Assembly: GCF_014132355.1 (NCBI RefSeq)
Contig: NZ_BLZO01000115.1
Coordinates: 18,584-82,583 of the forward strand
DNA length: 64,000 nt
Origin: Okeania sp. KiyG1
GTDB taxonomy: Bacteria; Cyanobacteriota; Cyanobacteriia; Cyanobacteriales; Microcoleaceae
Direction: 5' to 3'
The stretch's first letter is position 1. Every line of letters starts with the position of its first letter. This document shows positions 2,089-38,123 of the stretch, piece by piece. The notes below the pieces were generated by a model, which had not been told where the DNA came from, ran no database searches, and saw only the letters and a list, made by a program, of their open reading frames with translations. A program made the translations under genes and the position numbers.

Positions 2089-2124
2089 CTTTAGCCCATT
2101 ACTGATTAAAAAATTCTTTTTGTT

Positions 2125-2715: not shown

Positions 2716-2728
2716 AAACAAATGGGTT

Positions 2729-3100
2729 CTATAAAAGACCCTCCAGTTGACGCCTAATTCTATCTAAGTCAAACTCTGAGTTTTCAGCCTTTTCAGACAT
2801 TTGGTCTGCATCTAGTTGCCAATCAGTATTTTCTACATTATTCTCTGGGGGTATCTCCAAAGAACCTGCTGGTATAACTTCCCACTCATAATTTACACCC
2901 CTACAGAATTCCATAATTTCTTCTTGGTCAAATTCTTCCACTGTCGGAGAAGGAAAATCTTGAGCTTCTAGTAAAACACCAAACCGAGTGGCATCATCCT
3001 CTGACTCAAACATCAATACCTTATTACGATCGCCAATCTGAATAGTATGAATTCCTTCATTTTCAGTTCTAGCATTAAACAGTAAAACAAATACTGGCAT
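2729..3100 (-). CDS. DUF3110 domain protein
   Basis: A 123-residue acidic protein starting MPVFVLLFNARTENEGIHT, which I recognise as the DUF3110 family of cyanobacteria and plastid-bearing organisms. The family has no defined function. The domain covers roughly residues 1-85, with the typical conversion of an incoming value by 'VLMFESEDDATRFG' and ending near CRGVNYEWEVIP. The C-terminal 35 residues are low-complexity and charged (ending RIRRQLEGLL). AGGAAAAG lies 3 to 10 bases before the ATG and supports the start. It is transcribed away from tamB. Confidence 0.8.
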   Translation of the reverse strand: MPVFVLLFNARTENEGIHTIQIGDRNKVLMFESEDDATRFGVLLEAQDFPSPTVEEFDQEEIMEFCRGVNYEWEVIPAGSLEIPPENNVENTDWQLDADQMSEKAENSEFDLDRIRRQLEGLL

Positions 3101-3245
3101 AACTTTTCCTAATATGAATAGACAATTGTTTTGTCTATATTAGTAGAGACAAAGAAATAATGTGGTCTAAATTATAATCAAGGAAAGGGGAGGGTGGAGA
3201 GTACATGGTCTGGTGTTACTATAGTCTCACCTTTCAAGGTGATGA

Positions 3246-3423: not shown

Positions 3424-6400
3424 ATGACCAACACTCCAGACAATTCTGATCAGCAAACGGATACCTCCAAGTCTAGAAATTGGCGCAGAATAGTAATTAT
3501 TAGTGGTCTGGGTTTAGGGACAGTCTCTGTAGGAGGGGGAGCAGTAGGAACTTGGTGGTTTCAAGAAAAGTTAGCCCCAATGGTGAGTGAGAATCTAACC
3601 AGACTTACCCAAAGGCCAGTTAAAGTGGGCGAACTGAAAAAATTTAGAATTGGTTATCTAGAATTTGGCCCTTCATCTTTACCTCCAACTTCAACAGACT
3701 CGATCGCTGCTTCTACGGAGATAGTTAAGGTTAGGTATGCTCTTGGACCTCTGTTATTTAAAACTCTGAAACTTGATATTACATTTGGAAAATCTGAAGC
3801 TAATTTACGACAAGAAGCTGATGGTTTGTTTAAAATTCCAGAATTGGCAGATTTACCACCTCCTCCTTTTAATGTTGATATTACAGCTCTACGTTTCCCG
3901 GAACTGGATGTTAGTATTTTGCCTGCTGAAACAGGAAGGTCTTCTGAACCGATATTGTTAGATTTAAGTAATAGTGAAGTTTTTTCTAGGGACAAATTGC
4001 AACGTTGGTTGGTAGACCTGAATGGGAAAGTTATTGATGGTGGTGGTAATTTTCGGGTTGATGCTGATGTTAATCTCAAAAATTCGGAAGTTAAAGCTGA
4101 TGTCGTAGCGCAAAAGTTGCAATTACCAATATTTGTTCCTTTAGCATTAGCGTTTGAAAATATTCCTGATGTGAGTCTGCAAAGTGGGGTATTAAATGCA
4201 GACCTCCGGACTGAGATTAAACTAACTGATAAAGTTGCTGACTTTGTACAAAATATCCAGGGAAAAGTTAGTTTGCAGGAGTTGAGTGCTAACAGCAGTT
4301 TCCTGAGCGACACTGTTAACCTGAATACGGTTGCTAATGTTGCTTGGCCAAAAGTTAGGGTGGAAAGTTTAAATGCTAACTATGGGAATATTGGATTAAA
4401 ACTCCAGGGTACGGCACAAACAACGGCGGACTTAGATCCTCAAAATCTTAATCTGAATTTGAATGCGGAGGTTTTGCCTGTTAGTTTCGACACTTTGTTT
4501 AATACTTTTACTACAGAAATTGATTTACTTTCGCAGCGTATTGAAACAGTAGAAACTAAAGAGCAACTTCAGCAAATTCGGAGTCAAATTCAGGATATTA
4601 GACCTTTATTGGATGGGGGTGTGAAAACTAATTTCAAGATTGTTGGTAGTTTGCTGCAACCAGTGGTTTCAGGAAAAGTTCAAACGACTGAAGTTACTAG
4701 GGTTGATAGATTAAGTTTTCAGGATATTGCGACAAATTTTACTATTAGTCCGCAGTTAAACCAAGAATTTCAACCGCTCAGTTTAACTGCTGGTTTTTCT
4801 GACTTACAAATTACTCCAGTGGTGGGAGGGAAAATTACAGGCAATTCAGAATTTAGAATTCAGAATTTAGAATTTAGAATTCAGGAGGGAGTCAGTAGTC
4901 AGTCAGTTCAACAAGGAGTGGGAACTCAGAATTCAGAACTCAAAACTCAGAACTTACAAGTCGGGAGTCGGGAGTTAGTCAGTAAGGAGCAGGAAACGAA
5001 TTTTAATCCTGTAGTTGACTTAAACCTGAAGGTGGAAAATTTACCCCTAGAACCGATCGCTCAACAATATGGTATTATTTCACCTCTTCCCTTGGGTGAT
5101 TTTTCTTCTGAAGTAGCGATCGCTGGTGCTTTGGAAAGTTTGAAAGGACAGGTTCTATGGCAGTTACCGAATGCTGTTTATCCGGTGAGTGGTACTGTTG
5201 ATGTTGTTGATAGTCAGGCGAATATTAAAAATACTGTTGTTGAGGTTGGTGGGGGAAGGGTTAATATTGATGGTACTGCTAATCTGGAAAACTGGCAGCT
5301 CAATGTTACTGTAAATCAAGTTAATTTAGATAATTTAGAACCTTTAAAACCATTGGGTTTACCATCTGGGTTGGAGGGTATTGTTAATGCTGAAGCTAGT
5401 TCTTCTGGTCTCACGAGGGATTTTTCAATTAATACTATTGATGGGAATGGGAGTGGGGTAATAAGTGTTGCTGGTGGTCAGGTTAATTTTAATGCTCGGG
5501 CAAATAATGGTAATTTGCAAGGTAAGGGAAATGCTGTTCAATTGAGTTTAAGTGCTTTAGAAAGAATAGGGAGAAATGCAAATTTTCTGACGACTCCTAA
5601 TCCTATTTTGTCTAGTCAAACTGATGGAAAGGTTAATGGTGAAGCTACTTTTTCAGCTAATCTAAATGATTTAAGTTTGCCTGGGATGACGAGTGGTTTT
5701 CAGGGGAATGTTAATCTGGCTAATGGTAAGGTTAATGTTAATGGGAGGGTTAATAATGGTAATTTTCAAGCATTGGTTGATACTGAAGATTTACCACTTA
5801 ATCCTTTGTTAGATTTGGGGTTATCGGCAGTAAATTCTGGAGTTATTACTGACCAGGAACAGTTAAATAATATTAGAGCTAATATTCCCAGGTTAAAAAC
5901 TCTGAATGGTAGACTCAATGGTAAGGTTAATTTATCAGGAAATCTGGCAAATCCTACTCCGGAAAATATAGCAGGAAATTTAGCTGGAAATCTCAAAATA
6001 GAGGAAGGTACAATTAATGCTACAGGTAGTTTAAGTTCGGGTGATTTTCAAACGACAGTTAAAACTAATCAAATATCTCTTACTGCTGTGGAAAAGTTAT
6101 TAACAGAGGCACAAATTGTTTCTCTGAAAAATAATGTTTTACCAACAGATACTAAGGGAAATATTCAGGGGGAAGCGACTGTATCTGGAAATATTAATAA
6201 TTTAACTCCTACAGGAATTACTGTTGATGGGGATGGAAAGGTAATTATTGCTGGAGGATTTGTTGATGCTACGGGGAGGTTAAATAATGGTAATTTTCAA
6301 GCTTCTGTTAATAGCAGTAAATTAGCAGTAAATCCTCTTTTAGATTTGGGAGAGGCGGTTTTAATTTCGGGATTAATTCCTGTAGAACCTAATCAAGTTC

Positions 6401-19740: not shown

Positions 19741-20184
19741 ATGACTTTAAGTGTTTCTAGTTCTTTTTCTTTACCAGTTTTACGCAACGGAAGCAACGGT
19801 TCTGATGTAACTCTGATACAACGCCTTCTCAATAATGCTGGCTATGGTTCTTTAGTGGAAGATGGCATCTTTGGTGTTCGCACTGACGCCGCAGTTAAGC
19901 AGTTCCAAAAAGACCGAAGTTTAACAGTGGATGGTATAGTTGGTTCTCAAACTTGGGGAGCTTTACTGCCTCCTACTATTGCTCGGGGTAGCAGCGGTGA
20001 TGATGTTAAACGTCTGCAAATGACCCTGAATGAAATGGGCTATTCTCTAGTTGGAGATGGTATTTTTGGTTCCAACACTGAAGCAGCTGTCAAGGAATTC
20101 CAAAAAAATAGCAGCTTAGAAGTTGATGGCATTGTCGGTCCTTTAACTTGGTATGCTCTGATGAGCATTATGATTCAAGACTAA
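19741..20184 (+). CDS. Two-domain peptidoglycan-binding protein, copy 1
   Basis: A 147-residue protein made of two PG_binding_1 domains (residues about 12-75 and 80-143). Each has the pattern RxGSxGxDVxxLQxxLN, GYxxxxDGIFG, AAVKxFQKxxSLxVDGIVG and TWxALL. There is no N-terminal signal peptide, so export is unclear; it may be carried by a non-classical route or bind wall material after lysis. CAGGAG lies 9-14 bases before the ATG. Copy 1 has GDDVKRLQ at the start of domain 2, where copies 2 and 3 have SDDVERLQ. Confidence 0.9.
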   Translation: MTLSVSSSFSLPVLRNGSNGSDVTLIQRLLNNAGYGSLVEDGIFGVRTDAAVKQFQKDRSLTVDGIVGSQTWGALLPPTIARGSSGDDVKRLQMTLNEMGYSLVGDGIFGSNTEAAVKEFQKNSSLEVDGIVGPLTWYALMSIMIQD

Positions 20185-20482: not shown

Positions 20483-20926
20483 ATGACTTTAAGTGTTTCT
20501 AGTTCTTTTTCTTTACCAGTTTTACGCAACGGAAGCAACGGTTATAATGTGACTCTGATACAAAGCCTTCTCAATGATGCTGGCTATGGTTCTTTAGTGG
20601 CAGATGGTATCTTTGGTGTTCGCACTGACGCCGCAGTTAAGCAGTTCCAAAAAGACCGAAATTTAACAGTGGATGGTATAGTTGGTTCTCAAACTTGGGA
20701 AGCTTTACTGCCTCCTACTATTGCTCGGGGTAGCAGCAGTGATGATGTTGAACGTCTGCAAATGACCCTGAATGAAATGGGCTATTCTCTAGTTGGAGAT
20801 GGTATTTTTGGTTCCAACACTGAAGCAGCTGTCAAGGAATTCCAAAAAAATAGCAGCTTAGAAGTTGATGGCATTGTCGGTCCTTTAACTTGGTATGCTC
20901 TGATGAGCATTATGATTCAAGACTAA
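20483..20926 (+). CDS. Two-domain peptidoglycan-binding protein, copy 2
   Basis: A 147-residue near-identical paralogue of the genes at 19741 and 21225. It differs from copy 1 at a few sites, including YNVTLIQSLLNDAG for SDVTLIQRLLNNAG in domain 1, ADG for EDG before IFG, and SQTWEALL for SQTWGALL. Both PG-binding domains are intact. The leader, with the hairpin GGACTAAAGTCC and the CAGGAG ribosome-binding site, is almost unchanged, so the three copies are probably regulated alike. Confidence 0.9.
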   Translation: MTLSVSSSFSLPVLRNGSNGYNVTLIQSLLNDAGYGSLVADGIFGVRTDAAVKQFQKDRNLTVDGIVGSQTWEALLPPTIARGSSSDDVERLQMTLNEMGYSLVGDGIFGSNTEAAVKEFQKNSSLEVDGIVGPLTWYALMSIMIQD

Positions 20927-21224: not shown

Positions 21225-21668
21225 ATGACTTTAAGTGTTTCTAGTTCTTTTTCTTTACCAGTTTTACGCAACGGAAGCAACGGTTCTGATGTGACTCTGG
21301 TACAACGCCTTCTCAATAATGCTGGCTATGGTTCTTTAGTGGAAGATGGCATCTTTGGTGTTCGCACTGACGCCGCAGTTAAGCAGTTCCAAAAAGACCG
21401 AAATTTAACAGTGGATGGTATAGTTGGTTCTCAAACTTGGGGAGCTTTACTGCCTCCTACTATTGCTCGGGGTAGCAGCAGTGATGATGTTGAACGTCTG
21501 CAAATGATCCTGAATGAAATGGGCTATTCTCTAGTTAGAGATGGTATTTTTGGTTCCAACACTGAAGCAGCTGTCAAGAGATTCCAAAAAAATAGCAGCT
21601 TAGAAGTTGATGGCATTGTCGGTCCTTTAACTTGGTATGCTCTGATGAGCACTATGATTCAAGACTAA
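21225..21668 (+). CDS. Two-domain peptidoglycan-binding protein, copy 3
   Basis: A 147-residue paralogue in the last, incomplete repeat unit. Differences cluster in domain 2: MILNEMG for MTLNEMG, LVRDGIFG for LVGDGIFG, AAVKRFQK for AAVKEFQK, and STMIQD for SIMIQD at the C-terminus. Both domains keep their core motifs. Sequence after the stop (TGATTAACG) departs from the other units within about 10 bases. Confidence 0.9.
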   Translation: MTLSVSSSFSLPVLRNGSNGSDVTLVQRLLNNAGYGSLVEDGIFGVRTDAAVKQFQKDRNLTVDGIVGSQTWGALLPPTIARGSSSDDVERLQMILNEMGYSLVRDGIFGSNTEAAVKRFQKNSSLEVDGIVGPLTWYALMSTMIQD

Positions 21669-24192: not shown

Positions 24193-26895
24193 CTAAATTC
24201 CCGATCGCCCTTCAGCTTCACCAAACAAAATAAAGTGTTCAAACCCAGTATTAAAAACACCATTTTCTACTGCTAAAGCTACAACCGGATTAGAAGCTAA
24301 ATAAAATCGTTCATCAAATTCAGTAGTTCTTTCATCGCGTCCTTCAAAAAAACCAACATTAATAAAATGATCGAACCCACTATTAAACACATTATTATCT
24401 ACTGCTTCTGCCACCCCTGGATTTTCAATTAAATAAGTAGTTTCATCAAATAAAAGACTGGGGTTGCGTCCTTGAAATTGACCTTGATTAATAAAGTGGT
24501 CTAAACCATTTGTAAACAAACCATTTTGCACAAATCTGGCTACATCAACGTTATTTTCTAAATAAAATTCTTCATCAAAATATATCTCTATTGGATTAAT
24601 TTGTTGTTCCGTCAAATACTGAATAAAATTCTGGAAAATTTCAGGTGGCGTAACATCTGAAACAATCTTAGCTACAAAAGCATTAGACTCTAAACCAAAA
24701 TTATTCAAAGCATCAATAACTGGAAAATCTATAGAATCAGAAAAACCAACTATATAAGTATTTTGAGCAGGGTCTATAACAATACCATTTCCAGATTCAT
24801 TCCCCACACCGCCAATAGTTGCAGAAAAATCTAAAAACAATCCACTACTAGAAACTTTACTCACAAAAGCATCATCGGGTAATCCTAAACCAACCCCTTC
24901 TTGAAACTCATTAATAATCGGAAAATTCACAGAAGCAGTGCTACCTGTCACATAAGCATTACCCAAATTATCCACAGCAATATCATTAGCAAATTCACTA
25001 TTATTTCCACCTAAAAAACTCGCATATCCCAAACTACCATTCCGATTAATTTTCATCACAATAGCATCACTACTACCGCCTCCAAAGAAATTTTTAAATC
25101 CACTCAAAGCAGGAAAGTCTCCCACAGGAGAAGTAGCAATATCTCCCTGAAGAATACGAGTTCCTGTTGTACCAGAAACATAAATATTTTCAGCTAAATC
25201 TATGGCAATACCACTACCTGAATCACCATCGCCCCGACCATAAAAAGTTGAGAAAAGTAAGTCGCTACCTTCTGGATTTAATTTAGTAATAAAAATATCG
25301 CTATCTCCCCCATAAAAATTTTGCAGTGGATTCTGGAGTGGGAAGTCAAAAGACCTAGTTGAACCTGTAATATAAGCATTACTATTATTATCAACTTCAA
25401 TATCAATTGCTGAATCAAAATCTATCCCACCTAATAAAGTAGAATATTCTAAAGTTTTGCCATTTCTGGATAATTTAGTTACAAAAGCATCTCGATTCAA
25501 ATTATTAGTAGTTTCGGTTTGAAAGGCATCTTCTGTAGTAGGAAAGTCGGCAAAACCAGGAATTGGGTCTGCCGGAAATGGGGAAAAACCACCCGTACTT
25601 CCTGTTACAAAAGCATTGCCATTATTATCCACAGCAATACCTCTACTAATATCTTCGTCTCGGCCACCAAGGTAAGTAGAATATTGTACGCTATTACCTA
25701 AACTAGAAAGTTTTGTCACAAAAGCATCGCCATTAAAACTACCTCCACCATAAGTAGTTTGCAAGGCATTAACTGTTAGGAAATCTAGGGAATTAGTATT
25801 ACCTGTAACGTAAACTCCGCCTGCTATATCTACAGCAATATCTGTGCCAAATTCATCATTACTTCCTCCAAAATAAGTAGACCAAAGAACAGTTCCATCT
25901 TGGTCGAGTTTAGTGACAAAAGCATCGTTATTAAATACTACTCCCCCACCATTAAAGTCTGATTGAATTGCATTTATTGTGGGAAAATCAACGGAAGTAG
26001 TATCTCCAGTTATATAAACATTTCCGGCAACATCTACAGCAATACCATTGCCACGATCAAAACCATTTCCGCCGATTAATGTGGAATATTCTACAGTGGG
26101 GTCGATAACTAATTCATAGTTTGGATTATATTCTCCAATGTCGAATCCTACTTGATTATTTTCGAGGAGTTCATAGGCAACTTCGACTTCAATTTGCTGA
26201 CCATTTATTTCTTGATAAGCAATTGGGGGTGCTTCAGTTAATTCTCCAAATTTAGTATCTATAGATAAAGTACCGTCAGCAAGAATATTAACTTCTTCTA
26301 TCCCACTGTAGTTAAGAATAATTTGAGAAGTGTCGATGTTGGGAGAAATAATAAAATCACTTTTTAGGTTGCCATCTACACCACTATATATTAGGTCGAT
26401 ACCTGGATATAAATTTTCATATTCAATAGCGGCATAAGTCGGAATATTTATATATGAATCGTATGAATTATCAGAGTTATTACCTTGGAAAAAATTGGCA
26501 ACTCCCGGCAGTTGATTTAAAGGTTTAATAATAGGTTCCGGATTAGCATTTTGGAAATTTAATTTCACTACATCTGAGGTAGTTTGACCTTCTATGTCTT
26601 GAGCGGCAGCAAAGATAATTTCATCTGGGGCAAATAATAAATCATAGTTATTTGCTTTTGCTAAATATTCAACTTCAGTGTTGTTAATTTGTCCGGCATT
26701 TTCAATAAAACTAATGTCTGTCAGAGGGTCATTATTGATGGATAAATCAGTCGGAGGTGTTTCAAGTTTTTGTACTTCTAGTTCTGGGATAAATGTTTCC
26801 GAACTAGAGACAATATTTTGATTGTTAATTTGATGATCTTCCGGAAGATTAGTTAAAGGTAATGCTGCTAATTGATTCTCTGATAAATCTATCAT
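24193..26895 (-). CDS. SBBP-repeat beta-propeller protein with C-terminal FDExxYL repeats
   Basis: A 900-residue protein without a classical signal peptide. Residues about 60-260 match the domain that precedes SBBP repeats (FIENAGQINNTEVEYLAKAN, then YENLYPGIDLIYSG). Residues about 265-750 hold eight or so SBBP repeats (STYLGG...GIAVDxxGNAYVTGxT..DFP), which build a beta-propeller. The last 135 residues are three repeats of about 45 residues: FDEEFYLENNVDVARFV..G.F..G.DHF...G..QGR, a module I associate with secreted cyanobacterial proteins. Probable extracellular or surface role, unproven. Its ATG overlaps the stop codon of a hydrolase fossil (TAATG, 26892-26896). Confidence 0.85.
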   Translation of the reverse strand: MIDLSENQLAALPLTNLPEDHQINNQNIVSSSETFIPELEVQKLETPPTDLSINNDPLTDISFIENAGQINNTEVEYLAKANNYDLLFAPDEIIFAAAQDIEGQTTSDVVKLNFQNANPEPIIKPLNQLPGVANFFQGNNSDNSYDSYINIPTYAAIEYENLYPGIDLIYSGVDGNLKSDFIISPNIDTSQIILNYSGIEEVNILADGTLSIDTKFGELTEAPPIAYQEINGQQIEVEVAYELLENNQVGFDIGEYNPNYELVIDPTVEYSTLIGGNGFDRGNGIAVDVAGNVYITGDTTSVDFPTINAIQSDFNGGGVVFNNDAFVTKLDQDGTVLWSTYFGGSNDEFGTDIAVDIAGGVYVTGNTNSLDFLTVNALQTTYGGGSFNGDAFVTKLSSLGNSVQYSTYLGGRDEDISRGIAVDNNGNAFVTGSTGGFSPFPADPIPGFADFPTTEDAFQTETTNNLNRDAFVTKLSRNGKTLEYSTLLGGIDFDSAIDIEVDNNSNAYITGSTRSFDFPLQNPLQNFYGGDSDIFITKLNPEGSDLLFSTFYGRGDGDSGSGIAIDLAENIYVSGTTGTRILQGDIATSPVGDFPALSGFKNFFGGGSSDAIVMKINRNGSLGYASFLGGNNSEFANDIAVDNLGNAYVTGSTASVNFPIINEFQEGVGLGLPDDAFVSKVSSSGLFLDFSATIGGVGNESGNGIVIDPAQNTYIVGFSDSIDFPVIDALNNFGLESNAFVAKIVSDVTPPEIFQNFIQYLTEQQINPIEIYFDEEFYLENNVDVARFVQNGLFTNGLDHFINQGQFQGRNPSLLFDETTYLIENPGVAEAVDNNVFNSGFDHFINVGFFEGRDERTTEFDERFYLASNPVVALAVENGVFNTGFEHFILFGEAEGRSGI

Positions 26896-26960
26896 TAATT
26901 TTCTCTAATAAAATCAAGAACAAGATGAGCAGTAACTTGTAATTTTTCCAAGTGTGAAAA
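26893..26960 (-). pseudogene. C-terminal fossil of an alpha/beta hydrolase gene
   Basis: The minus strand reads FSHLEKLQVTAHLVLDFIRE followed by N and stop, closely matching the last residues of the hydrolase at 29743-30639 (VPHLEKAEVTANYILDFIRE). DNA is also similar over about 65 bp. The rest of the gene is absent. Its stop overlaps the start of the SBBP gene. Confidence 0.7.
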
Positions 26961-27010: not shown

Positions 27011-27988
27011 TTAGTGTTTTTTTCTTTTATAAGAAACTGTTTCCTCCTGCCATTTTTCTATTGTCGGCATATATAACCAATGATTTAATTTTTCTGCTGC
27101 TACATAACCTTTTAATTCTGGGTCTGGCCAAATATGAAGCTTATCTAAACATCCAATACTTTTAGCTGCTTCTTCCACCTCTTCCCACTGCTTAATAAAA
27201 TTTTCTGCCCACGATTTTTTAGTCATAATTGAACGAGCAAATTCTAAACCTGCCGCTATCATACGTTTACCATTACTTCCACGAGCATTAATAGGTTCCC
27301 AAAATATTACTTCTGGGTCAATTTTCATAATTTGTTCTAAATTTATTTTAAAATCATCTAATGTCATTATCGGAGGAGTGGGAGCCATAGCTACATACAA
27401 TCTGCATCCTGCTTGATGACCTTTTTGTAGAGCTTCATAACGTTTAGAAGGCGGGGGTGCTTGTGGTTCAATTTTGAGACTAAGTTCATCATTTAAAAAT
27501 GGTAAACTCATGCCAACTGTAATATTAGACTGATTAAGAATATCTAAATCATTTACCCATAAAGGACTACGAGTTAAAATTCTTACTCTTCTCTCATTTT
27601 TAGATAATATTTCGACAGTTTGACGAGTAATTTTTGCTGTTTGAGAATTTTGATATGGGTCGGTTCCAGAACATAATAAAACGACTCCTTTACCTTCTGG
27701 TGTTTCGCGCCATTTTTTCTTACGATTTAACTTTTCTTCTAATTGCTGAGGTATATTTTCTCGAACTAATAAATATTTTCCCCAATCCATCTGAGGATTA
27801 CTAATTCCTTTTTCTTGTAGTTCCTTTTGCTTTGTTCTAATTGCCGGAGTTGAAGGTACATAACAAAATGTACATCCATGAAGACAACCAGATGCTATAT
27901 TAATGACATAATCACATAAACCTTTCTTTTTGAGGGCACTTTCTTGAAGGGGATTAACAATTTTTTCTGAGCCTTTAATAATAGACAT
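27011..27988 (-). CDS. Radical SAM protein of the SPL/DUF5131-neighbour type, paired with TcmP
   Basis: A 325-residue protein with the radical SAM iron-sulfur motif CLHGCTFC (CxxxCxxC) near residue 33 and the flanking YVINIASG. Further motifs fit spore-photoproduct-lyase-like radical SAM proteins: LLCSGTDPYQ, RILTRSPLW, VGMSLPF and FWEPINARGSNGKRM. It should bind a 4Fe-4S cluster and cleave S-adenosylmethionine; the substrate is unknown. Start: the ATG at 27988 has GGGAG ten bases upstream; a TTG at 28003 is less likely. It follows the tcmP gene on the same strand with a 122-bp gap, so the two may be co-expressed. Confidence 0.8.
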   Translation of the reverse strand: MSIIKGSEKIVNPLQESALKKKGLCDYVINIASGCLHGCTFCYVPSTPAIRTKQKELQEKGISNPQMDWGKYLLVRENIPQQLEEKLNRKKKWRETPEGKGVVLLCSGTDPYQNSQTAKITRQTVEILSKNERRVRILTRSPLWVNDLDILNQSNITVGMSLPFLNDELSLKIEPQAPPPSKRYEALQKGHQAGCRLYVAMAPTPPIMTLDDFKINLEQIMKIDPEVIFWEPINARGSNGKRMIAAGLEFARSIMTKKSWAENFIKQWEEVEEAAKSIGCLDKLHIWPDPELKGYVAAEKLNHWLYMPTIEKWQEETVSYKRKKH

Positions 27989-28110
27989 AGCCAACACTCC
28001 CAAGTAATTTGTATCATATATTTTGGTGTTTGTAGTCTTTTATTTTACTTATTCATAATAGTTTTCTAGTACTTAAAATAAATAAAGCTGTTTATGACCT
28101 GTATATCTAA

Positions 28111-29367
28111 TTATATCTTTTTTTGTAATTTTTTCACATCTCTTTCTCTTACTATTTTATCATTTCTTATGATTTCTATTTCTTTATCTTGTAATAATCT
28201 GTTTATTAATAAGTCTTCAAAGTGATCTTTAGTTGCAGGATGTTTCTCCATATAATCATTCCAGATTTGACATAAGGTTGCTTCATAACCATTTCTAATA
28301 TTTTTACCTAAGTCTTTGTCTAAAATATCTATACAAGATTCGTGATTCTCTAGAGAGTCTTCTATGTAAAAATCTAGCTTTTGATTTTGCTCATAATAGT
28401 CAATAGTTTTTAATCCAAAACCATAAACCTCAAACTCAAAGAAATGATATAAATTATTGTGCTTCCACAAAGCATCTCTCATTACTTGTAAAGCAGTTAT
28501 ATTCTGAGAAAAGTGCATTAAGTAATATAAAACAACTGTAAAACCTTTAGGTATCAGAGAAAATGTATGTGCGTATTTAGCATTTCCTTTATCCCTAAAT
28601 AACCTGAGAGATTCATTCCTGAAATAGCGCTGCTCACTAACTCTATCAAGTAATTTTAAATTTTCTAATTCATAATACCCACTTGCTTCTAGAATTTTAT
28701 TAAAATTGACCGTATCAACACCATTTTTGCCGATGACAAATCTTTTTAAATCTCTAATCATATAGGTATAGAGAATTTCTGAACCCTTGAGAGTATTTAT
28801 GCGCCTGATACTATTCATTGATACATGGCTCCATCCAAAAGGATCGATTAAAAAGAAAGAATGACCTTTACGATTTTCAGCTATACTTATGCAATAAGAA
28901 ACTATATTTTCAAAATCTCTACAAATAAATTCACACTGCTCTATTAAACTACCAAAATCTCCAGAAATTTCATGCTGTTGTTCATTTGCTAATTCTTCTA
29001 GACCTGCTTCTAACATAGAATAATTTTTCAAACAGTCTATATGATTTTTATCGTTATCTATAAAAATATATTTAATATTGAGCGGATACTTGCGTTTACA
29101 TTTTTTATAAGCTGAACGAACAGCTTTAATAATTCTAATAGGAGAACCTTCCCACTGTCTTGAAGACTCTTGGTCATCATACATACCACCACCACAAAAC
29201 CCATCTATGAAAGTAAAAGTTTTTTCTCCTTGTCTTGCTTTCTGATAGAGAGTTATAATCAGATTTTCTATATACTCTTCAATAATTTGATGCTTGGCTT
29301 TAGTATGAGGGTCTATTATAGGAAGCTCACTACCATCAGCACCCCATTTTGCTTTCGAGTTACTCAT
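28111..29367 (-). CDS. tcmP: Three-Cys-motif partner protein TcmP
   Basis: A 418-residue protein whose N-terminus KWGADGSELPIIDPHTKAKH and following FTFIDGFCGGGMYDD match the TcmP family. The FIDGFCGGG segment resembles a Rossmann nucleotide (SAM) binding loop, YIFIDNDKNH its acidic second strand, and FFLIDPFGW a methyltransferase-like catalytic loop. TcmP is defined by its regular neighbourhood with Cys-motif proteins; its biochemical role is unknown. Here the partner is the radical SAM gene directly downstream. GGAG lies about ten bases before the ATG. The AT-rich, Ile/Lys-rich composition differs from the metabolic genes nearby and may reflect transfer. Confidence 0.85.
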   Translation of the reverse strand: MSNSKAKWGADGSELPIIDPHTKAKHQIIEEYIENLIITLYQKARQGEKTFTFIDGFCGGGMYDDQESSRQWEGSPIRIIKAVRSAYKKCKRKYPLNIKYIFIDNDKNHIDCLKNYSMLEAGLEELANEQQHEISGDFGSLIEQCEFICRDFENIVSYCISIAENRKGHSFFLIDPFGWSHVSMNSIRRINTLKGSEILYTYMIRDLKRFVIGKNGVDTVNFNKILEASGYYELENLKLLDRVSEQRYFRNESLRLFRDKGNAKYAHTFSLIPKGFTVVLYYLMHFSQNITALQVMRDALWKHNNLYHFFEFEVYGFGLKTIDYYEQNQKLDFYIEDSLENHESCIDILDKDLGKNIRNGYEATLCQIWNDYMEKHPATKDHFEDLLINRLLQDKEIEIIRNDKIVRERDVKKLQKKI

Positions 29368-29470
29368 TATTGCTTTTCTCCAGAAATAAAATTACTATTA
29401 GGAAAGTAATATAAGTATTGTGCTTATATACGCTAGGATATTCAAATTATTCTATCAATTTTATACAACA

Positions 29471-29713
29471 ATGAAAATTGCTACTAAACTAACTCAAGAA
29501 CAGGCGCAAAAACTTGTCTTTATCCAGGAAAAAACTAAACAAAGCACAGATTAAATTTTATTATCTGCTCTAGAGTATTACTATCAACAACTTTTGAATA
29601 CTTCTGAAAACCACCTGGAAAAATTTAGTCAACTTGACTTTATTAGTTGTATTGAAGCTGAACCAAATTTTGCTGAAAACTGTGAATCAATTTTGATAAA
29701 AAGTAATAGCTAA
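29471..29713 (+). pseudogene. Orphan ribbon-helix-helix antitoxin with nonsense codon
   Basis: The frame from ATG 29471 reads MKIATKLTQEQAQKLVFIQE, then KTKQSTD, a TAA at 29552-29554, then ILLSALEYYYQQLLNTSENH and onward to a TAA at 29711-29713. Across the stop the pattern matches a small RHH (CopG/ParD-like) antitoxin. One substitution (GAA to TAA) would explain the break. No toxin gene (PIN, RelE or similar) is next to it. It is probably a dead remnant of a toxin-antitoxin pair. Confidence 0.65.
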
Positions 29714-29742
29714 TCAAGAATAATTATTTAAAAAATCTATTA

Positions 29743-30639
29743 TTAATTTTCTCTAATAAAATCAAGAATATAATTAGCAGTAACTTCTGCTTTTTCCAAG
29801 TGAGGAACATGACCACAATTAGGAATCCAAATCAGTTGAGAATTAGCGATCGCTCCCTCTAATTTACCAGCATCACCAATACCCAAAATCTGGTCATTTT
29901 CTCCCCACAAAATCAATGTTTGCTGTTGCAGAGAAGGCAATTTATTTTTGAAATTACCATAGCCACCACTTTTAGTAAAAGAAATTAAAGCTTGACTCCA
30001 ACCAGGCATTTCTAGATGCAATCTGGCACAAATATTAGCATCTAAAGTAGCAAAACTTTTATCAAAATAAGCACTACGACTAATACTTGCTCGAACCTGA
30101 GGGCGACGCAAAAATTCTGTGGCGAAATAGTCAAGTGGAGGAAAAATAAACTTACTAATAATTGGATTATTTTGCATTCCAGCACTATCAATTAATACCA
30201 ATTTTTTCACAACTTCTGGATAAGTCAGAGTAAAATCAATAGCAGCAGCACCACCCATAGAAGCACCTATTAAAATAACAGGTTGATTAATCCAACTTTT
30301 CCAAAAATAATAAAGATGAGTAGCGATCGCCTGTGGATTAATTTTTAAATTCGGCAATCTATCTGTAAAACCAAACCCCAATAAATCAACAGCAAAAGTT
30401 TGATTTTGGGCAGCAAGTAATGGCAAAAGGCGACGATATTCAAAAATAGAACTATCAAAACCATGTAGTAATAAAATCGGGGTATTATCTTCACCTTGAG
30501 AGACAAAACTTGTATTAATTGTTTGAGAAGTCAGAGGAGTATAAATTGATTGATACTGAATATTTTGAGCAAAAGAAATAGATGTAGATTCAGTTAGACT
30601 TTCAGTTAATTTTGGTAGAAAATCAGGATACATTGGCAT
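29743..30639 (-). CDS. Alpha/beta hydrolase
   Basis: A 298-residue alpha/beta-hydrolase. It has the oxyanion segment LLLHGFDSSIFEYRRLLPLL near residue 78, the nucleophile elbow LIGASMGGAAA (GxSxG, Ser near 138), an Asp region ILWGENDQILG and the His region NCGHVPHLEKAE near residue 278. All three members of a Ser-Asp-His triad are therefore visible. The substrate is not predictable. There is no signal peptide. A fossil of the C-terminus of a close relative lies at 26893-26960. Confidence 0.88.
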   Translation of the reverse strand: MPMYPDFLPKLTESLTESTSISFAQNIQYQSIYTPLTSQTINTSFVSQGEDNTPILLLHGFDSSIFEYRRLLPLLAAQNQTFAVDLLGFGFTDRLPNLKINPQAIATHLYYFWKSWINQPVILIGASMGGAAAIDFTLTYPEVVKKLVLIDSAGMQNNPIISKFIFPPLDYFATEFLRRPQVRASISRSAYFDKSFATLDANICARLHLEMPGWSQALISFTKSGGYGNFKNKLPSLQQQTLILWGENDQILGIGDAGKLEGAIANSQLIWIPNCGHVPHLEKAEVTANYILDFIREN

Positions 30640-32694: not shown

Positions 32695-35600
32695 TTACAT
32701 ATCACAAATTTCTAAATCTTCCTTCACCTTGGGATGAGTAATAAAATAATCTTGAAGCCAATCACAAGAACCTTTCAACAAATCATTTAATCCTTTCACG
32801 CGCCACAACTGTAAATTATTATCCACCAAAGTTGCCACATATTTACCATCCACACTTAAAGCCTTAGCATTCTCAAATTGAGCTAATTGACGTCCAGTAA
32901 TATCCCAAATTCTTACCATTCCATCTTTGCCCATACTAGCCACCTGTTCCCCATCAGCACTAAAAGTCAAATTATTCACACTACCTATATTGCCCTTCAG
33001 ATCCGCAATTTGATTGCCCGAAAAATCCCAAATTTTGACTACCCCATTGCTATCTCCCGTCACTATATACTTTCCAGATGGACTAAAAGCCATACTCTCG
33101 ACCCAACTTGAAAGAATTTTTAATTCTGTCACAAGCTGAAAAGAACTATCCCAGATTTTGGCAATACCATCCTCTCCAGCAGTACCAATATATTGCCCGT
33201 CTGGACTAAAAACCACATCCAACACGCGACCATTATGTCCTTTTAACTCAGCCAACTGTTGACCAGAATTATTCCAGATGCGGGCAACACCATCTTCTCC
33301 CACCGTTGCTAAACGTTGTCCATCTGGACTAAAACCAATTTGCTTTGCTCTCCCCTTTTTACCTTTTAGCTCTATCAACTCTTCTCCTGAAATCTTCCAA
33401 ATTCTACCCTGACCACTATCTCCCGCAGTAGCTAGACGTTGACCATCAGGACTAAAACTCATATCCCCAAACATTCCCAGATATCCATTGAATTGAGCTA
33501 AAGGTTTTCCCGAAATATCCCAAATACGGGCAGTACCATCAACTGCTGCTGTTGCTAATTTCTGACTGTTAGAACTAAAACTTACTGACCCAAAAATATC
33601 GGAGTTTCCCTTGAGTGTTGCCTCGTGATTATCTTCTAGTTCCCAAGTTCTACCCGTACCATCCTCTCCTAAAGTTAATAGTCGTTGTCCATCAGAACTA
33701 AAGTTAACTTCCCAAACCCTGCCTTGATGTCCTCTAAGATTGGCTAACAAATTACCATTATTGTTCCAAATTTTCACACTACCGTCACTACCTGCTGTAG
33801 CTAAACGTTCACCATCCGGACTAAAACTTACACTGGTGACAATTCCTTGATGTCCGGGAAGTTTTGATAATACTTGACCTGAAGTATCCCATATCAAGGC
33901 TGTTCCATCTTCTCCTGCTGTAGCCAAACTTTTGCCATCCGGACTAAAGCTGACATTCCAGACCCCGCCTTCACCTCCCTTAAGTTTGGTTAGGAGTTTA
34001 CCTGAGCTACGTCGCCAAATCCTAATTGTGCCATCCCATCCTGCAGTGGCTAAACGTTGACCATCTGGACTAAATATTACTTTTTCAACACTACCTTTAT
34101 GTCCCCTGAGTCTGGCTAACTGTCTGCCGGATCTATTCCATATTCTCGCGGTCCCATCCCATCCAGCAGTAGCTATATATCTACCATCTGGGCTAAATGT
34201 GACATCTAAGATTCGACCTCGATGTTTTTTGAGAGTCGCTATTTTCTTGCCTGATATATTCCAAATTCTCGCAGTGCCATCTTCTCCAGCAGTAGCTATA
34301 TATTTACCGTCAGGACTGAAAGTAATTTGCCAAATTTGGCCTTTATGGCCTGTTAGTTCTACTTGCTGCTTACCTAGAAAATCCCAGATTCTAACTGTAC
34401 TATCATCTCCTGCTGTAGCTAAAATGTTTCCTTCTGGTGAAAATTTAATGTGAGAAACTTTGCCCTGATGTCCTCTTAATTGAGCTACGGACTGACCTGA
34501 GTATTTGAGGATTTTGGCTGTACCATCATTGTTAACTGTGGCGAGTAGTTGGCCATCAGGACTCATGGTAATTTTTTTGACGTTGGGAATTTGATTTTTC
34601 TCGTGAATATTATTGAGGATTTGTTGCAGGGCAAATATGGGACTTGTAGCTGGATAATATTGAAGTGGGCGATCGCCTCCAACTAATTCTTTTAGTTCTT
34701 TTCCAGCTTGCATTGCTGATAGTAATGCTTCTATTTCTGCAATTTCAAATTTTCTTAAAGCACTAATTCCTTTGTGTTCTAGTTTTGTACCTTCTTGTGC
34801 TTCTTGAAGTTCATATTGTGCTTTTTCTAGCTGATATTCTGTTCTTTGAAGTTGATTTTGTGTATCTTGAAAAAGTTTAGTTGCCCAACCAACTACTGTC
34901 ATTGCTGTTATTGATACTATAACTAAACCTGCCACTCCTAGTTTCAGTTTATTCTGTTGATTTGAAGATTTTTTGACTTTTTTCCGAACTACCTGTTTTT
35001 TTTGAACTTTATTCTGATTTTTTTGTACTGCTATCTCCTGTTGTTTCTGTTGTAATTGAAGCGGAATATTATTGGGATTATTCTGAATTTTCTGTGCTGC
35101 TATTTCCCCTAATTCCTGTTGTGGCTGAACCTGAATTTCATTGGGATTATTATTTTTATTATCTTTTTCTTTTGAGTTTAATACCCCGCCGTCTACAGGG
35201 TGTTGAAAATTGGATAGGGACTCAAACCCCAACAACTTTTTCCTCCCTCCTTTCAAAGGAATGCCTTCTTCCTCCCTACTTTCAAAGGGGGGCAAGGGGG
35301 GATAATTTCTTCCTTCTTCAATGTGATTCTGATTTTTTTGTACTGGTATCTCCTGTTGTTTCTGTTGTGGTTTAATCAAAGCATTACTATTTATTGGATT
35401 AATTTCTGTCACTTCAATATTAGAAAAATCAGGTACCATTAGAGATATTTTTTCCCGGTCATTTAATTCTAATATTTGAGGATTAGTTTGAGGAGCAAGA
35501 TTAGTTACTGTTGGTAAATATTGTTGTACCCATTCTTGATTGAAAATTTCTGCATATATCGGACTGTATACCTCTAAAAAACCATTATTTATTTTCGCTA

Positions 35601-36648
35601 CACCAGACCTCAATAACTCTTTAATTTCCCATTTATTATTAGCGATCGCATCATTTTTAAATTTTTGATTATCTTGACCAGGTGGTCTTAATCTACCATG
35701 TTTTAATAGTTGTTGATATATTTCTAAATGACTTATAGATTTCTGTATATTCTTCAGCAAGAGATTTTGTATTTTGTTGAAATGAATCGGGTAGTCTTGT
35801 GAATCCCAGTTTTCGATCGCACAAATTGTTACTAAATCTTCTATTAAAGCTATATCATTAGAATTTTCTTCTCCTCTTCTTTCTCCCAGATAGTCAATCG
35901 CTATTTGACACAATTTTTGCATCAAAAATGGTTGTCCGCCTGACCAATATAATATTTTTTCTATAACTTGTAGTGGCTGTTTAACTATCCCTTTAAATGG
36001 TTGTGCTAAATGAGCTACTTCTTCTTTTTTGAAACTATTAAGTTCAATAAATCTACATCTATCTATTAAATTATCGGGTATAGTTGTCCCCAGCAAAGCA
36101 AATGTTAAGCGTTTAAACCTTGGATTATTTGTTCTTTCCTCAATACAATAATCAATTAATACCCCTAAACTACTAAAGCCTGAATTAACAACACTATCAT
36201 CATTAACTTCATCTATAAAAATTACTATTTTCTCATTTTGAGTATTAACTAACAGTACCTCTTCAATAAAAATAAATAATCTTTCATCCGCAGGTAAATC
36301 TGCCATTTCTTCCCACCATAATTCCGGGAAATGCCGAGGAAATAAAAAAGTCTTCTCTAAAGTCAAAATTATTTGCTCATACCATTCTTCTAGAGTCAAA
36401 AGTTTATTGTTAACTCTAGTCATATCTAAGGCAATACAGATAATATTTTCTGCTTGCAACAGTTGTATTGTTCTAATTTTTAAACTAGATTTTCCCGTTT
36501 GTGGAGAACTTAATACATAACAATATTCACCTGCTTTCAAAGCATTAAATAGCTCTTTATCTGCCGAGCGTCTAACATAAGTGGGATGATCTAATGCTAA
36601 ATAATTACCTACTTGATAGCTATATTTTTGATTCTTCTGTATTTTCAT
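32695..36648 (-). CDS. AAA-like ATPase with about 14-15 WD40 repeats
   Basis: A 1317-residue paralogue of the gene at 13187-16684. Residues about 1-330 form the AAA_35-like domain: YQVGNYLALDHPTYVRRSAD, Walker A SSPQTGKSSLK, Walker B IVIFIDEVND. A long Gln/Asn-rich linker (residues about 400-570) contains an in-frame repeat (PPLPPFESREEEG) at roughly 35165-35305 in the DNA. A hydrophobic segment (VAGLVIVSITAMTVVGWA) precedes a coiled-coil stretch. About 14-15 WD40 repeats (SPDGQ..ATAG.DGTARIW) end the protein. Start: the open frame reaches 36774, but its first 42 residues are translated repeat; the ATG at 36648 gives MKIQKNQKYSYQVG, aligned with the paralogue. Confidence 0.87.
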   Translation of the reverse strand: MKIQKNQKYSYQVGNYLALDHPTYVRRSADKELFNALKAGEYCYVLSSPQTGKSSLKIRTIQLLQAENIICIALDMTRVNNKLLTLEEWYEQIILTLEKTFLFPRHFPELWWEEMADLPADERLFIFIEEVLLVNTQNEKIVIFIDEVNDDSVVNSGFSSLGVLIDYCIEERTNNPRFKRLTFALLGTTIPDNLIDRCRFIELNSFKKEEVAHLAQPFKGIVKQPLQVIEKILYWSGGQPFLMQKLCQIAIDYLGERRGEENSNDIALIEDLVTICAIENWDSQDYPIHFNKIQNLLLKNIQKSISHLEIYQQLLKHGRLRPPGQDNQKFKNDAIANNKWEIKELLRSGVAKINNGFLEVYSPIYAEIFNQEWVQQYLPTVTNLAPQTNPQILELNDREKISLMVPDFSNIEVTEINPINSNALIKPQQKQQEIPVQKNQNHIEEGRNYPPLPPFESREEEGIPLKGGRKKLLGFESLSNFQHPVDGGVLNSKEKDNKNNNPNEIQVQPQQELGEIAAQKIQNNPNNIPLQLQQKQQEIAVQKNQNKVQKKQVVRKKVKKSSNQQNKLKLGVAGLVIVSITAMTVVGWATKLFQDTQNQLQRTEYQLEKAQYELQEAQEGTKLEHKGISALRKFEIAEIEALLSAMQAGKELKELVGGDRPLQYYPATSPIFALQQILNNIHEKNQIPNVKKITMSPDGQLLATVNNDGTAKILKYSGQSVAQLRGHQGKVSHIKFSPEGNILATAGDDSTVRIWDFLGKQQVELTGHKGQIWQITFSPDGKYIATAGEDGTARIWNISGKKIATLKKHRGRILDVTFSPDGRYIATAGWDGTARIWNRSGRQLARLRGHKGSVEKVIFSPDGQRLATAGWDGTIRIWRRSSGKLLTKLKGGEGGVWNVSFSPDGKSLATAGEDGTALIWDTSGQVLSKLPGHQGIVTSVSFSPDGERLATAGSDGSVKIWNNNGNLLANLRGHQGRVWEVNFSSDGQRLLTLGEDGTGRTWELEDNHEATLKGNSDIFGSVSFSSNSQKLATAAVDGTARIWDISGKPLAQFNGYLGMFGDMSFSPDGQRLATAGDSGQGRIWKISGEELIELKGKKGRAKQIGFSPDGQRLATVGEDGVARIWNNSGQQLAELKGHNGRVLDVVFSPDGQYIGTAGEDGIAKIWDSSFQLVTELKILSSWVESMAFSPSGKYIVTGDSNGVVKIWDFSGNQIADLKGNIGSVNNLTFSADGEQVASMGKDGMVRIWDITGRQLAQFENAKALSVDGKYVATLVDNNLQLWRVKGLNDLLKGSCDWLQDYFITHPKVKEDLEICDM
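35165..35305 (-). repeat. Repeat inserted in frame in the WD40 ATPase linker
   Basis: GGGGGCAAGGGGGG, AAAGGAATGCC and AGGGAGGAA purine-rich blocks are typical of intergenic repeats here. Read on the minus strand they give NYPPLPPFESREEEGIPLKG and following residues (ending near PVDGGVLNSKE). The surrounding linker is Gln/Asn-rich, so the insert causes no frame loss. Confidence 0.65.
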
Positions 36649-36689
36649 ATTTATCAAAATAATATGGGTCGCGCAACCCCGCCTTGATT

Positions 36690-36770
36690 GGCGAAATATT
36701 TTTGGAGCGAAGCTCAAATCCCCGTTACAAAAATAACTTTTGACTTCTGACTTCGTTAACTTGACTATCC
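36690..36770. repeat. CCCCGTTACAAAAAT / TGACTTCTGACTT repeat
   Basis: This block (AATATTTTTGGAGCG, CTCAAATCCCCGTTAC, TTTTGACTTCTGACTT) also occurs at 44098-44155, at the end of nagA, and in inverted form at 51162-51230. It forms the unlikely N-terminal extension of the neighbouring WD40 frame. Confidence 0.7.
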
Positions 36771-36815
36771 TCACTCTAGCAACTGTATCAAATTTGACAT
36801 CCTCCCGATGCTCCT

Positions 36816-38123
36816 CTACGAGACAGCGCGGGATTTCCTAGCATCACTGTTAGGGGCTTTCTGTTTCATAGCACCTGCCTTCCGGGATTTACTCCCTTCG
36901 GGTCTTACGGTCGCTCCACAGACTGACACTGCGAGTCCCGCAGCCTTCTTGGTGGGCGTTCCCTTGCGTCTATCGCCGACGCGGGTTCCCATCCGCAAAA
37001 TATTTAACGAAGCGTTTATGTCCCTGTCATGGTGACTACCACACTCTGGGCAATCCCACTCTCTGATATTTAGAGGTAATTTTTCTACTATATGTCCACA
37101 ATTAGAGCAACGCTTAGAACTGGGGAAATATCTGTCAATTTTGATTAATTCCCGTCCATACCATTCAGCTTTGTACTCTAATTGCCTGACTAGCTCTCCC
37201 CAGTTGGCATCACTAATTGCTCTGGCTAATTTATGGTCTCTTGGTGCGCGTTCCCTTGCGACTGGCGTCGTCGCGGGGTCGCACCGCTTTTTGACCATAT
37301 TTTTTACTGCCAAATCCTCAACTACTATTGTTTGGTTTTCTCTGATTAGTTGAGTCGTTAGCTTATGGGTATAGTCAAGCCTTGAATCTTTGATTTTTGC
37401 GTGTATCCTAGCTACTTTCAGCCTGGCTTTTTGATAATTATTTGACCCAAAGGTTTTCCTTGATAGACACTTTTGAGCTAACCTTAATTTTTTGTGTAAC
37501 TTGTTGAGATTTTTAGGATTAGCTATTTTTTTTCCATCACTGGTAGTTACTAAGCTGGTAATTCCTAAGTCAATACCTATCTGTTTATTAACTGGTTTGA
37601 GCTTTAAATCTCTAGTGTCATTGATTCTCACAGAAACTGACCATCTGCTGCTAGGGTCAAGTTTTACTGTTATTGTGGTTGGTATACAGTTTTGTGGTAG
37701 TTGCCTACTCCATCTGATAGGTAATGGTTCAGCACATTTGGCTAGATAGACTTGACCATCTTTCCACTTGAAGGCTGATTTTGTGAACTCAGCACTACCA
37801 CCATTACGTTTTTTCTTGAAGTTAGGATATTTAGTACGCCCACTGAAAAAATTAGAGAAGGCAGTCTGCAAATGTCTCAAACCTTGCTGTAATGGAACAC
37901 TACTTACTTCTGTAAGAAAATCTAAATCTTCCTGCTTTTTCCAGTTGGTAAGCATAGCAGAAGTTTGCTTATACCCTAACCGTTCTTGTTTCTCATACCA
38001 AGCTTGAGTCCTTGCTGCTAAAGCTTTGTTGTAGATTAAACGCACACAACCCAATGTTCTCCGTAACAGATTCTCCTGTTCTGGAGTTGGGTAGAACCTA
38101 AATTTGTACGCTTTCTCAACCAT
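36816..38123 (-). CDS. tnpB: RNA-guided endonuclease TnpB (IS605 family) with palindromic insert
   Basis: A 435-residue TnpB. It begins KAYKFRFYPTPEQENLLRRT and has the RuvC-like motifs IGIDLGITSLVT (catalytic Asp near residue 190), VVEDLAVKNMV (Glu) and the last Asp in HHDRDINASLNIL. The zinc finger is CSNCG...CPECG. TnpB proteins are guided by an RNA made from the element's right end. Between KNMVKK and HKLARAISDANWG about 18 residues (RCDPATTPVARERAPRD) come from a palindromic repeat at 37240-37294; relatives read directly from NMVKN to HKLA. Whether activity survives is unknown. The start ATG is 38123. Confidence 0.88.
   Translation of the reverse strand: MVEKAYKFRFYPTPEQENLLRRTLGCVRLIYNKALAARTQAWYEKQERLGYKQTSAMLTNWKKQEDLDFLTEVSSVPLQQGLRHLQTAFSNFFSGRTKYPNFKKKRNGGSAEFTKSAFKWKDGQVYLAKCAEPLPIRWSRQLPQNCIPTTITVKLDPSSRWSVSVRINDTRDLKLKPVNKQIGIDLGITSLVTTSDGKKIANPKNLNKLHKKLRLAQKCLSRKTFGSNNYQKARLKVARIHAKIKDSRLDYTHKLTTQLIRENQTIVVEDLAVKNMVKKRCDPATTPVARERAPRDHKLARAISDANWGELVRQLEYKAEWYGRELIKIDRYFPSSKRCSNCGHIVEKLPLNIREWDCPECGSHHDRDINASLNILRMGTRVGDRRKGTPTKKAAGLAVSVCGATVRPEGSKSRKAGAMKQKAPNSDARKSRAVS
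37240..37294. repeat. Palindromic repeat inside tnpB
   Basis: GGTGCGCGTTCCCTTGCG ... GTCGTCGCGGGGTCGCACC is the inverted version of intergenic blocks at about 2552-2602, 21952-22050 and 51097-51153. About 54 bases, a multiple of three, so the frame of tnpB is kept. Confidence 0.8.

Follow-up and report, generated by a model that had tools for sequence, protein, structure and literature searches.

The stretch of DNA analyzed here, called the window throughout, comprises 64,000 nucleotides of the cyanobacterium Okeania sp. KiyG1 (positions 18,584 to 82,583 of contig NZ_BLZO01000115.1, assembly GCF_014132355.1) and carries on its minus strand two neighboring genes, one for a protein of the TcmP family and one for a radical S-adenosylmethionine (SAM) enzyme, referred to below as rSAM. 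The TcmP gene (28111..29367) encodes 418 amino acids (aa), with a class I methyltransferase-fold domain and a probable winged-helix region at the C terminus, and lies upstream of the rSAM gene (27011..28003), whose product has 330 aa when read from a TTG at 28003 and 325 aa when read from an ATG at 27988. The ATG, which opens the frame with MSIIKG, is the more likely start, and it sets the gap between the two genes at 122 bp rather than the 107 bp counted from the TTG. The same spacing of 122 bp had been given in an earlier reading of this DNA made from the letters alone (the sequence-only reading), which proposed the pair as a modification pathway or a defense function not yet worked out; the motifs that it had pointed out in both proteins are likewise present, as described below.

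On the evidence of its sequence, rSAM is a member of the radical SAM superfamily: it scores above the cut-off of PF04055 (41.5 against 29.5 bits, E 2.1e-10) and holds the cluster motif CX3CX2C (Cys40, Cys44, and Cys47; 27863..27886, minus strand), which is invariant in all 41 aligned rows. Cys30 is the only other cysteine conserved in every row, which argues that the enzyme has no extra cluster of the SPASM type. Its best NCBIfam relatives were PA0069 (95.6 bits), Rv2578c (68.9 bits), and radical SAM mobile pair B (49.6 bits), all far under the curated cut-offs (360, 430, and 410, respectively), so that it falls outside these equivalogs, and it also stayed below the cut-offs of the spore photoproduct lyase (SPL, SplB) families (18.8 against 27 for Pfam SPL and 15.2 against 400 for TIGR04070). 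The Pfam scan gave no match to PF07505, so that rSAM is not a DUF5131 protein, and no PADLOC family matched it at E values up to 1.

For the AlphaFold2 model of rSAM (mean pLDDT 90.5), the six best fold matches in the PDB (E 1.5e-8 to 2.6e-7; TM about 0.55-0.58 over 313-319 columns at 12-14% identity) were without exception entries of spore photoproduct lyase, ahead of every other radical SAM enzyme. MiaB followed at rank 33 and viperin at rank 50, with SkfB and SuiB also present in the list; a viperin-like identity was dropped in view of that rank. Searches of the PDB by sequence returned only motif-length or chance matches. By its model, rSAM is thus predicted to have an SPL-like fold, that is, the fold of an enzyme that acts on DNA, SPL being the enzyme that reverses a DNA lesion. 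It differs from SPL in the low identity, in its score under the Pfam cut-off, and in that the rSAM family nearly always stands beside TcmP, a neighbor that SPL is not known to have. In the sequence alignment, a cysteine occurs at position 111 in 28 of the 41 rows and at position 116 in 12; the catalytic cysteine of SPL is C140 according to the titles of the crystal entries. A separate observation concerns four relatives (loci outside the window carry L numbers), in which an intein-like insert interrupts rSAM at the third cluster cysteine, Cys47 (L075:4861-6819, L076:3941-5908, L077:3151-5124, and L117:4858-6825). It begins with Cys and closes with HN ahead of a Cys, and a shorter version without the middle part is found in L067/L132:2161-3294. 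Were it an intein, the cluster site could form only after splicing; the copy in the window has no such insert.

The TcmP protein scores 153.3 bits with TIGR04474 (cut-off 53, E 1.2e-44). TcmP proteins are defined, as the family name conveys, by having a three-Cys-motif protein as a neighbor; here this is the adjoining rSAM with its CX3CX2C, and NCBI annotates such neighbors elsewhere. Of the two motifs on the minus strand, FIDGFCGGG (motif I, 29185..29211), the SAM-binding loop by analogy, falls on invariant or nearly invariant columns, and DPFGW (motif IV, 28831..28845), the catalytic position by analogy, has D175, P176, and G178 invariant in 30 of 30 rows of class A (the window type, see below) and haloarchaeal proteins. 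A winged-helix tail at the C terminus is probable: the region 28159..28371 (minus strand) resembles the GMT-like winged helix-turn-helix family PF22560 below threshold (21.6 bits against a cut-off of 27, E 3e-4), and the other TcmP of the same genome exceeds this cut-off with 70 bits. Fold matches of the TcmP model (mean pLDDT 85.4) were headed by EgtD when ranked by E value and by RlmJ and Rv0187 when ranked by target-normalized TM (0.53 each, among the 50 matches listed), with BamL also among them. TcmP is hence a predicted class I SAM-methyltransferase fold. The sequence-only reading had made its proposal depend on SAM binding in structure models of TcmP, and at the level of the fold the model agrees with it.

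The likeness to RlmJ, the DUF519 methyltransferase that forms m6A2030 in 23S rRNA, deserves closer consideration. RlmJ is among the closest folds (TM by target up to 0.53), and its motif I aligns with the profile of the TcmPs that accompany DUF5131 over 31 columns (E 1.2e-4, probability 56; the yardstick RsmJ gave E 0.46). The two proteins share only about 10% identity, TcmP has DPFG where RlmJ has DPPY and possesses an extra C-terminal region, and the profile of the window-type TcmPs matches RlmJ at E 0.031. Together with the presence of MiaB in the fold list of rSAM, these resemblances would suit a pair that modifies tRNA or rRNA, with an RlmJ-like methyltransferase and radical C-H chemistry (methylthiolation or C-methylation), for example protecting or marking RNA in infection. 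We hold this to be very unlikely, given that SPL ranks far above MiaB and that the presence of the pair in some and its absence from other genomes of one genus (see below) speaks against a housekeeping modification. Many radical SAM enzymes and class I methyltransferases mature peptides or small molecules, and SkfB, SuiB, and BamL in the two fold lists would be compatible with the maturation of a ribosomally synthesized peptide or a small molecule by the present pair. Since rSAM lacks a SPASM-type cluster and the loci show no additional recurrent gene that encodes at least 120 aa (small precursor open reading frames [ORFs] were not searched for), such a role appears extremely improbable.

The sequence-only reading further staked its proposal on the pairing being conserved in other genomes, and this is what we found. 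For this comparison, TcmPs were divided into class A (the window type), class B (about 290 residues), and class C (about 280 residues). A survey of 195 genomes of the order found a TcmP of the window kind in 15, and 54 had an rSAM match with an E value no higher than 0.001, many of these matches being remote. Among the 17 full-length close rSAM loci of this survey, window included, 16 had a TcmP beside rSAM, namely 11 of class A (one truncated), 3 of class B, and 2 of class C, and one had none. A scan of genome contigs, restricted to two peptide patterns, yielded 64 rSAM loci, 50 cyanobacterial and 14 haloarchaeal. A TcmP, whole or broken, adjoins rSAM in 46 of the 50 cyanobacterial loci (35 class A, 5 class B, and 6 class C) and in 13 of the 14 haloarchaeal ones. 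The haloarchaeal assignments differ in kind: three proteins match class A (L119, L124, and L130), two pass TIGR04474 (L120 and L127), one is annotated as TcmP (L121), and the calls in L122, L123, L126, L131, L134, L135, and L137 are weak local matches (E 4e-8 to 7e-4). Plasmids gave a similar picture, as 58 plasmid records match rSAM and TcmP is annotated adjacent to it in seven of nine of the best, two of which (H17 and H19) are also within the 64 loci. In other records, too, NCBI annotation shows TcmP next to a radical SAM gene. As an observation on gene number, two related rSAM genes lie near one TcmP in 11 of the 14 haloarchaeal loci (L119, L120, L122-L124, L126, L127, L130, L131, L134, and L137).

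While the pairing is conserved, the TcmP in it is not always the same. The site in the window is marked by two genes outside the system, both on the minus strand: an alpha/beta hydrolase gene (29743..30639; PF00561, E 4.2e-23) and a gene for an SBBP-repeat protein (24193..26895; PF06739 and PF25778). Locus L075 has the same order of hydrolase, pair, and SBBP gene, with flanks that are 94-95% identical to those of the window and an rSAM that is 97% identical over 272 columns; yet the block between them (27989..29466 in the window, 3692-4860 in L075) holds a class A TcmP in the former and an oppositely oriented class B TcmP in the latter. A second exchange was found in Pseudanabaena, where L099 carries a class C and L101/L106 a divergently oriented class A TcmP, with 94% identical upstream sequence and a shared rSAM. 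A candidate third exchange at a lysS site (L050 versus L053) was not counted, since only rSAM and the lysS side align. Mapped onto a quick tree of rSAM (71 inner branches, 19 starred and 28 unsupported), the class of TcmP changes at least 7 times, or 11 times when orientation is counted as well. In the TcmP tree, co-directional class A proteins form one group (support 93) and divergent ones another (support 54), so that orientation seems to travel with TcmP. TcmP also diverges faster than rSAM, with a mean identity of 58% versus 73% among 15 class A loci and the lower value in 104 of 105 pairs.

The pair as a whole comes and goes. Ten stretches of relatives around the same hydrolase gene contain the pair in three (L225, L229 with a split TcmP, and L231), stumps in two (the end of rSAM in L226 and the start of TcmP in L228), and neither gene in five (L224, L227, L230, L232, and the short L233). 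For the six genomes of the window's genus, this stretch holds the pair in two (the window's own and G517), stumps in two, and neither gene in two. These comparisons establish a conserved, mobile, and modular pair of SAM-type proteins, whose anatomy and modularity are well supported. At the window site itself, the pair is bracketed by an 84% direct repeat of 85 nucleotides, one copy being the 3' end of the hydrolase gene (29723..29807) and the other a duplicate of it downstream (26875..26959). This would fit an insertion of the pair at the 3' end of the hydrolase gene; the reading frames of the window show no integrase gene between the repeats. Just upstream of TcmP, the sequence-only reading had seen a dead antitoxin, and a plus-strand frame with an in-frame stop does exist at about 29471-29713; the name antitoxin is a mere resemblance.

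Decay is uneven between the two genes. Among the 50 cyanobacterial loci, a broken TcmP stands beside a whole rSAM frame in five (L076, L079, L081, L085, and L108), the reverse occurs in none, and both genes are broken in four (L074, L116, L132, and L136); L129, whose TcmP is cut by the contig end, was set aside in this count. It is tempting to relate this asymmetry to a poison-antidote module, in which TcmP harms host nucleic acid and rSAM reverses the harm, the two being kept as a selfish or abortive-infection unit. That SPL is the closest fold of rSAM and that rSAM exists without TcmP (L128) would agree with such an arrangement. However, five against zero is a weak asymmetry, frames in draft genomes may be wrong, and the loci were found via rSAM, so that cases in which rSAM was lost and TcmP stayed whole would have escaped; we therefore consider this explanation unlikely.

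Seen from the side of TcmP, a second partner appears. TcmP matches occur in 42 of 386 cyanobacterial genomes, and among the best 30 of 51 match rows, 10 lie beside a window-type rSAM (one a remnant), 19 beside DUF5131, and one, an 85-aa fragment, beside neither. The pairing of TcmP and rSAM exceeds chance. In L172 and L173, a class A TcmP is paired with DUF5131, and the DUF5131 proteins of these two loci have a plain CX3CX2C, in contrast to the CX6CX2C of the other 17 aligned. When the profile of rSAM was compared with that of DUF5131, the alignment covered the cysteines and extended past them (probability 73; E 3.1e-5 for a single comparison). Given this alignment and the pairing in L172 and L173, it is probable that DUF5131 and the SPL-like enzyme represent separate branches of radical SAM proteins that fulfill equivalent tasks for TcmP. 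Partners are thus exchanged both ways, one rSAM family occurring with three TcmP classes and class A TcmP occurring with DUF5131. A further junction of the two radical SAM kinds is offered by mobile pair A, which resembles DUF5131 (83.2 bits, under the cut-off of 355) and adjoins mobile pair B; judged by these family scores, mobile pair A/B joins relatives of both DUF5131 and the window rSAM, and no TcmP was annotated in the one such locus examined.

PADLOC models TcmP with DUF5131 (Gp37-Gp68) as the defense candidates PDC-M30 and PDC-M41. Besides the window pair, the Okeania genome (11 Mb, 198 contigs) carries a pair of this classical kind: its only DUF5131 gene and a second TcmP gene, which converge and overlap, lie on a different contig. 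This DUF5131 matches PDC-M30B (E 5.9e-107) and PDC-M41B (E 1.1e-108), and both TcmPs of the genome match PDC-M30A, the window TcmP with E 1.9e-24 (PDLC04567). Of the other classes, the class B protein tested (L053) matches PDC-M41A (E 4.8e-120), and the class C protein tested (L063) matches PDC-M30A weakly (2.9e-9). Since its TcmP matches PDC-M30A, the window pair amounts to half of a listed PADLOC candidate with another second gene: like PDC-M30/M41 it consists of two adjacent, mobile genes, and unlike them it has an SPL-like radical SAM enzyme in place of the DUF5131-type B gene beside TcmP. It is best framed as a variant of the PDC-M30/M41 kind, not as an isolated new operon. The view that such a system had not been worked out therefore holds in part: the kind is not wholly unknown, being listed in PADLOC and annotated side by side by NCBI, whereas an SPL-like rSAM that stands in for DUF5131 and an exchangeable TcmP partner look new.

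Matches to TcmP genes turn up in 56 plasmid records (34 from Pseudomonas), and the DUF5131 form of the pair is found on plasmids of Acidovorax, Pseudomonas, and Methylobacter. These plasmids bear on another explanation, a horizontally moving DNA-repair pair in which an SPL-like enzyme would reverse a lesion and its partner would bind the lesion or the DNA, of benefit under UV and with no part in immunity. Cyanobacteria and haloarchaea, the hosts of the pair, live in light, and the SPL fold of rSAM would suit such a task. SplB-like radical SAM proteins are also reported to occur with SOS repair operons (PMC3765255). Repair would, however, leave unexplained both the DUF5131 form on the plasmids named and the in-place exchange and fast change of TcmP, and we regard it as quite unlikely.

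The surroundings of the pair offer individual links to defense. On a Nostoc plasmid, the TcmP-rSAM pair lies beside BREX genes, and one DUF5131 pair adjoins genes for a DNA methyltransferase, a helicase, and a GIY-YIG nuclease. Viral contigs contained no relative of TcmP or rSAM by tblastn; among phage records, nine carry remote rSAM homologues (four of them Acidianus two-tailed virus/Bicaudavirus), five, from Gordonia phages, carry remote TcmPs, and none carries both. The homologue in the Acidianus two-tailed viruses (KX607101, L144:3869-4774) is 33% identical. In the literature that the search reached, in which TcmP mostly has other meanings and subscription journals are thinly covered, we found no description of a TcmP with a radical SAM partner and no mechanism for TcmP/DUF5131 pairs, which appear in PADLOC only as defense candidates. 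Two papers are of interest here: among 32 P. aeruginosa strains with a predicted PDC-M30, 68.8% were resistant, a correlation (PMC10855318), and an expression table for Sinorhizobium meliloti lists the Hna defense gene and a TcmP gene in adjacent entries (PMC12445080).

Three further observations concern the window at large. Three near-identical 147-aa ORFs with peptidoglycan-binding-like repeats (by eye) stand in tandem at a spacing of 742 bases (19741-20184, 20483-20926, and 21225-21668). On the minus strand, positions 32695-36774 encode a 1359-aa protein that by eye looks STAND-like, beginning like an ATPase and containing WD40-like repeats, and that could be a defense or signaling protein. 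An ORF at 36816-38123, on the same strand as the pair, is by eye TnpB-like, of the IS200/IS605 kind.

Taking the evidence together, we tentatively favor a mobile system, complete in its two genes, that has nucleic acid as its target and most likely serves genome defense, a reading that we consider plausible while falling short of confidence. Action on nucleic acid is suggested by the SPL fold of rSAM and by RlmJ among the closest folds of TcmP. A role in conflict is suggested by the swapping and fast change of TcmP, the patchy presence of the pair, its occurrence on plasmids, the BREX neighbor, and the DUF5131 pair beside methyltransferase, helicase, and GIY-YIG genes. In this system, rSAM with its SPL-like predicted fold is the constant part and TcmP the exchangeable one. 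TcmP would recognize and, in most classes, methylate a nucleic-acid target, and the radical enzyme might take a hydrogen from a base at that target, completing or undoing a modification or lesion. Swapping TcmP would then change the target, much as the exchange of specificity subunits does in restriction-modification, and the modified or damaged target might mark self versus invader DNA or block the invader.

Several observations weigh against this reading. Neither gene of the pair encodes a nuclease, and the resemblance of TcmP to RlmJ is weak, as the TM of 0.53 by target is shared with Rv0187 and the window-type profile, at E 0.031, reaches a probability of only 1.6. All seven class C TcmPs have SDENG in place of DPxG, so that methylation may be a function of only some TcmPs. 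Some rSAM genes do without TcmP altogether. Among the four such cyanobacterial loci, L098 is cut at a contig edge, L115 has a leucine-carboxyl-methyltransferase-type gene where TcmP would stand, L125 is a prophage by eye, and L128 has integrase and ParA-like genes close by (also by eye); the prophage methyltransferase of L125 was tried as a TcmP and rejected (E 0.19 against the TcmP profile). The sole haloarchaeal case is L133 from Halorientalis persicus (4934-5923 and 1353-3209), in which an Eco57I-type DNA methyltransferase gene overlaps the start of rSAM and, by eye, a C5-cytosine methyltransferase-like ORF is close by. By TcmP profile search, the plasmid loci L139 and L201 have an rSAM without TcmP as well.

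Finally, the flanks show no clear enrichment in defense genes. When 123 of 333 flank proteins were compared by PADLOC with 123 proteins from 20 stretches of seven cyanobacterial (no haloarchaeal) genomes, 96 families were matched at E up to 1e-20 in the flanks and 82 in the control; these figures count families rather than proteins hit and so give no rates. Among the 25 matches listed for each, the flank families included Cas1, Orf5, type I and II REase, PsyrA, HEC-06, type IIG, PDC-S70, and type II methyltransferase, and the control families included PD-T4-6, PDC-M37B, mad6, MkoA, DolB, and C3a189. Likewise, no additional gene (of at least 120 aa) is recurrent, as no Pfam family occurs in more than 2 of the 123 sampled flank proteins, and several of the 25 Pfam families listed for the flanks are housekeeping ones. 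The proposal of a modification pathway or defense function is therefore borne out only in part, with mobility, presence and absence, and partner swapping fitting a conflict system and the flank comparison lending it no clear enrichment.

Within the reading as a mobile defense system, a more specific version can be envisaged, which we regard as speculative and rather unlikely as it stands: an as yet undescribed, modification-based immune system in which an SPL-like rSAM writes or erases an unusual C-H modification of nucleic-acid bases, steered by interchangeable TcmPs that strains trade in the manner of specificity subunits, and in which the DUF5131 systems form a sister branch with another radical SAM enzyme in the same role. 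The replacement of DUF5131 by an SPL-like rSAM in the window variant suggests that the step common to both forms is radical chemistry on the bases of nucleic acids. The loci with the same site, the same rSAM, and a different TcmP offer concrete pairs for a clean comparison of the swap. Viperins are the known radical SAM defense, and if the reading is true, radical C-H chemistry on nucleic acid would join this small set of radical SAM defenses.

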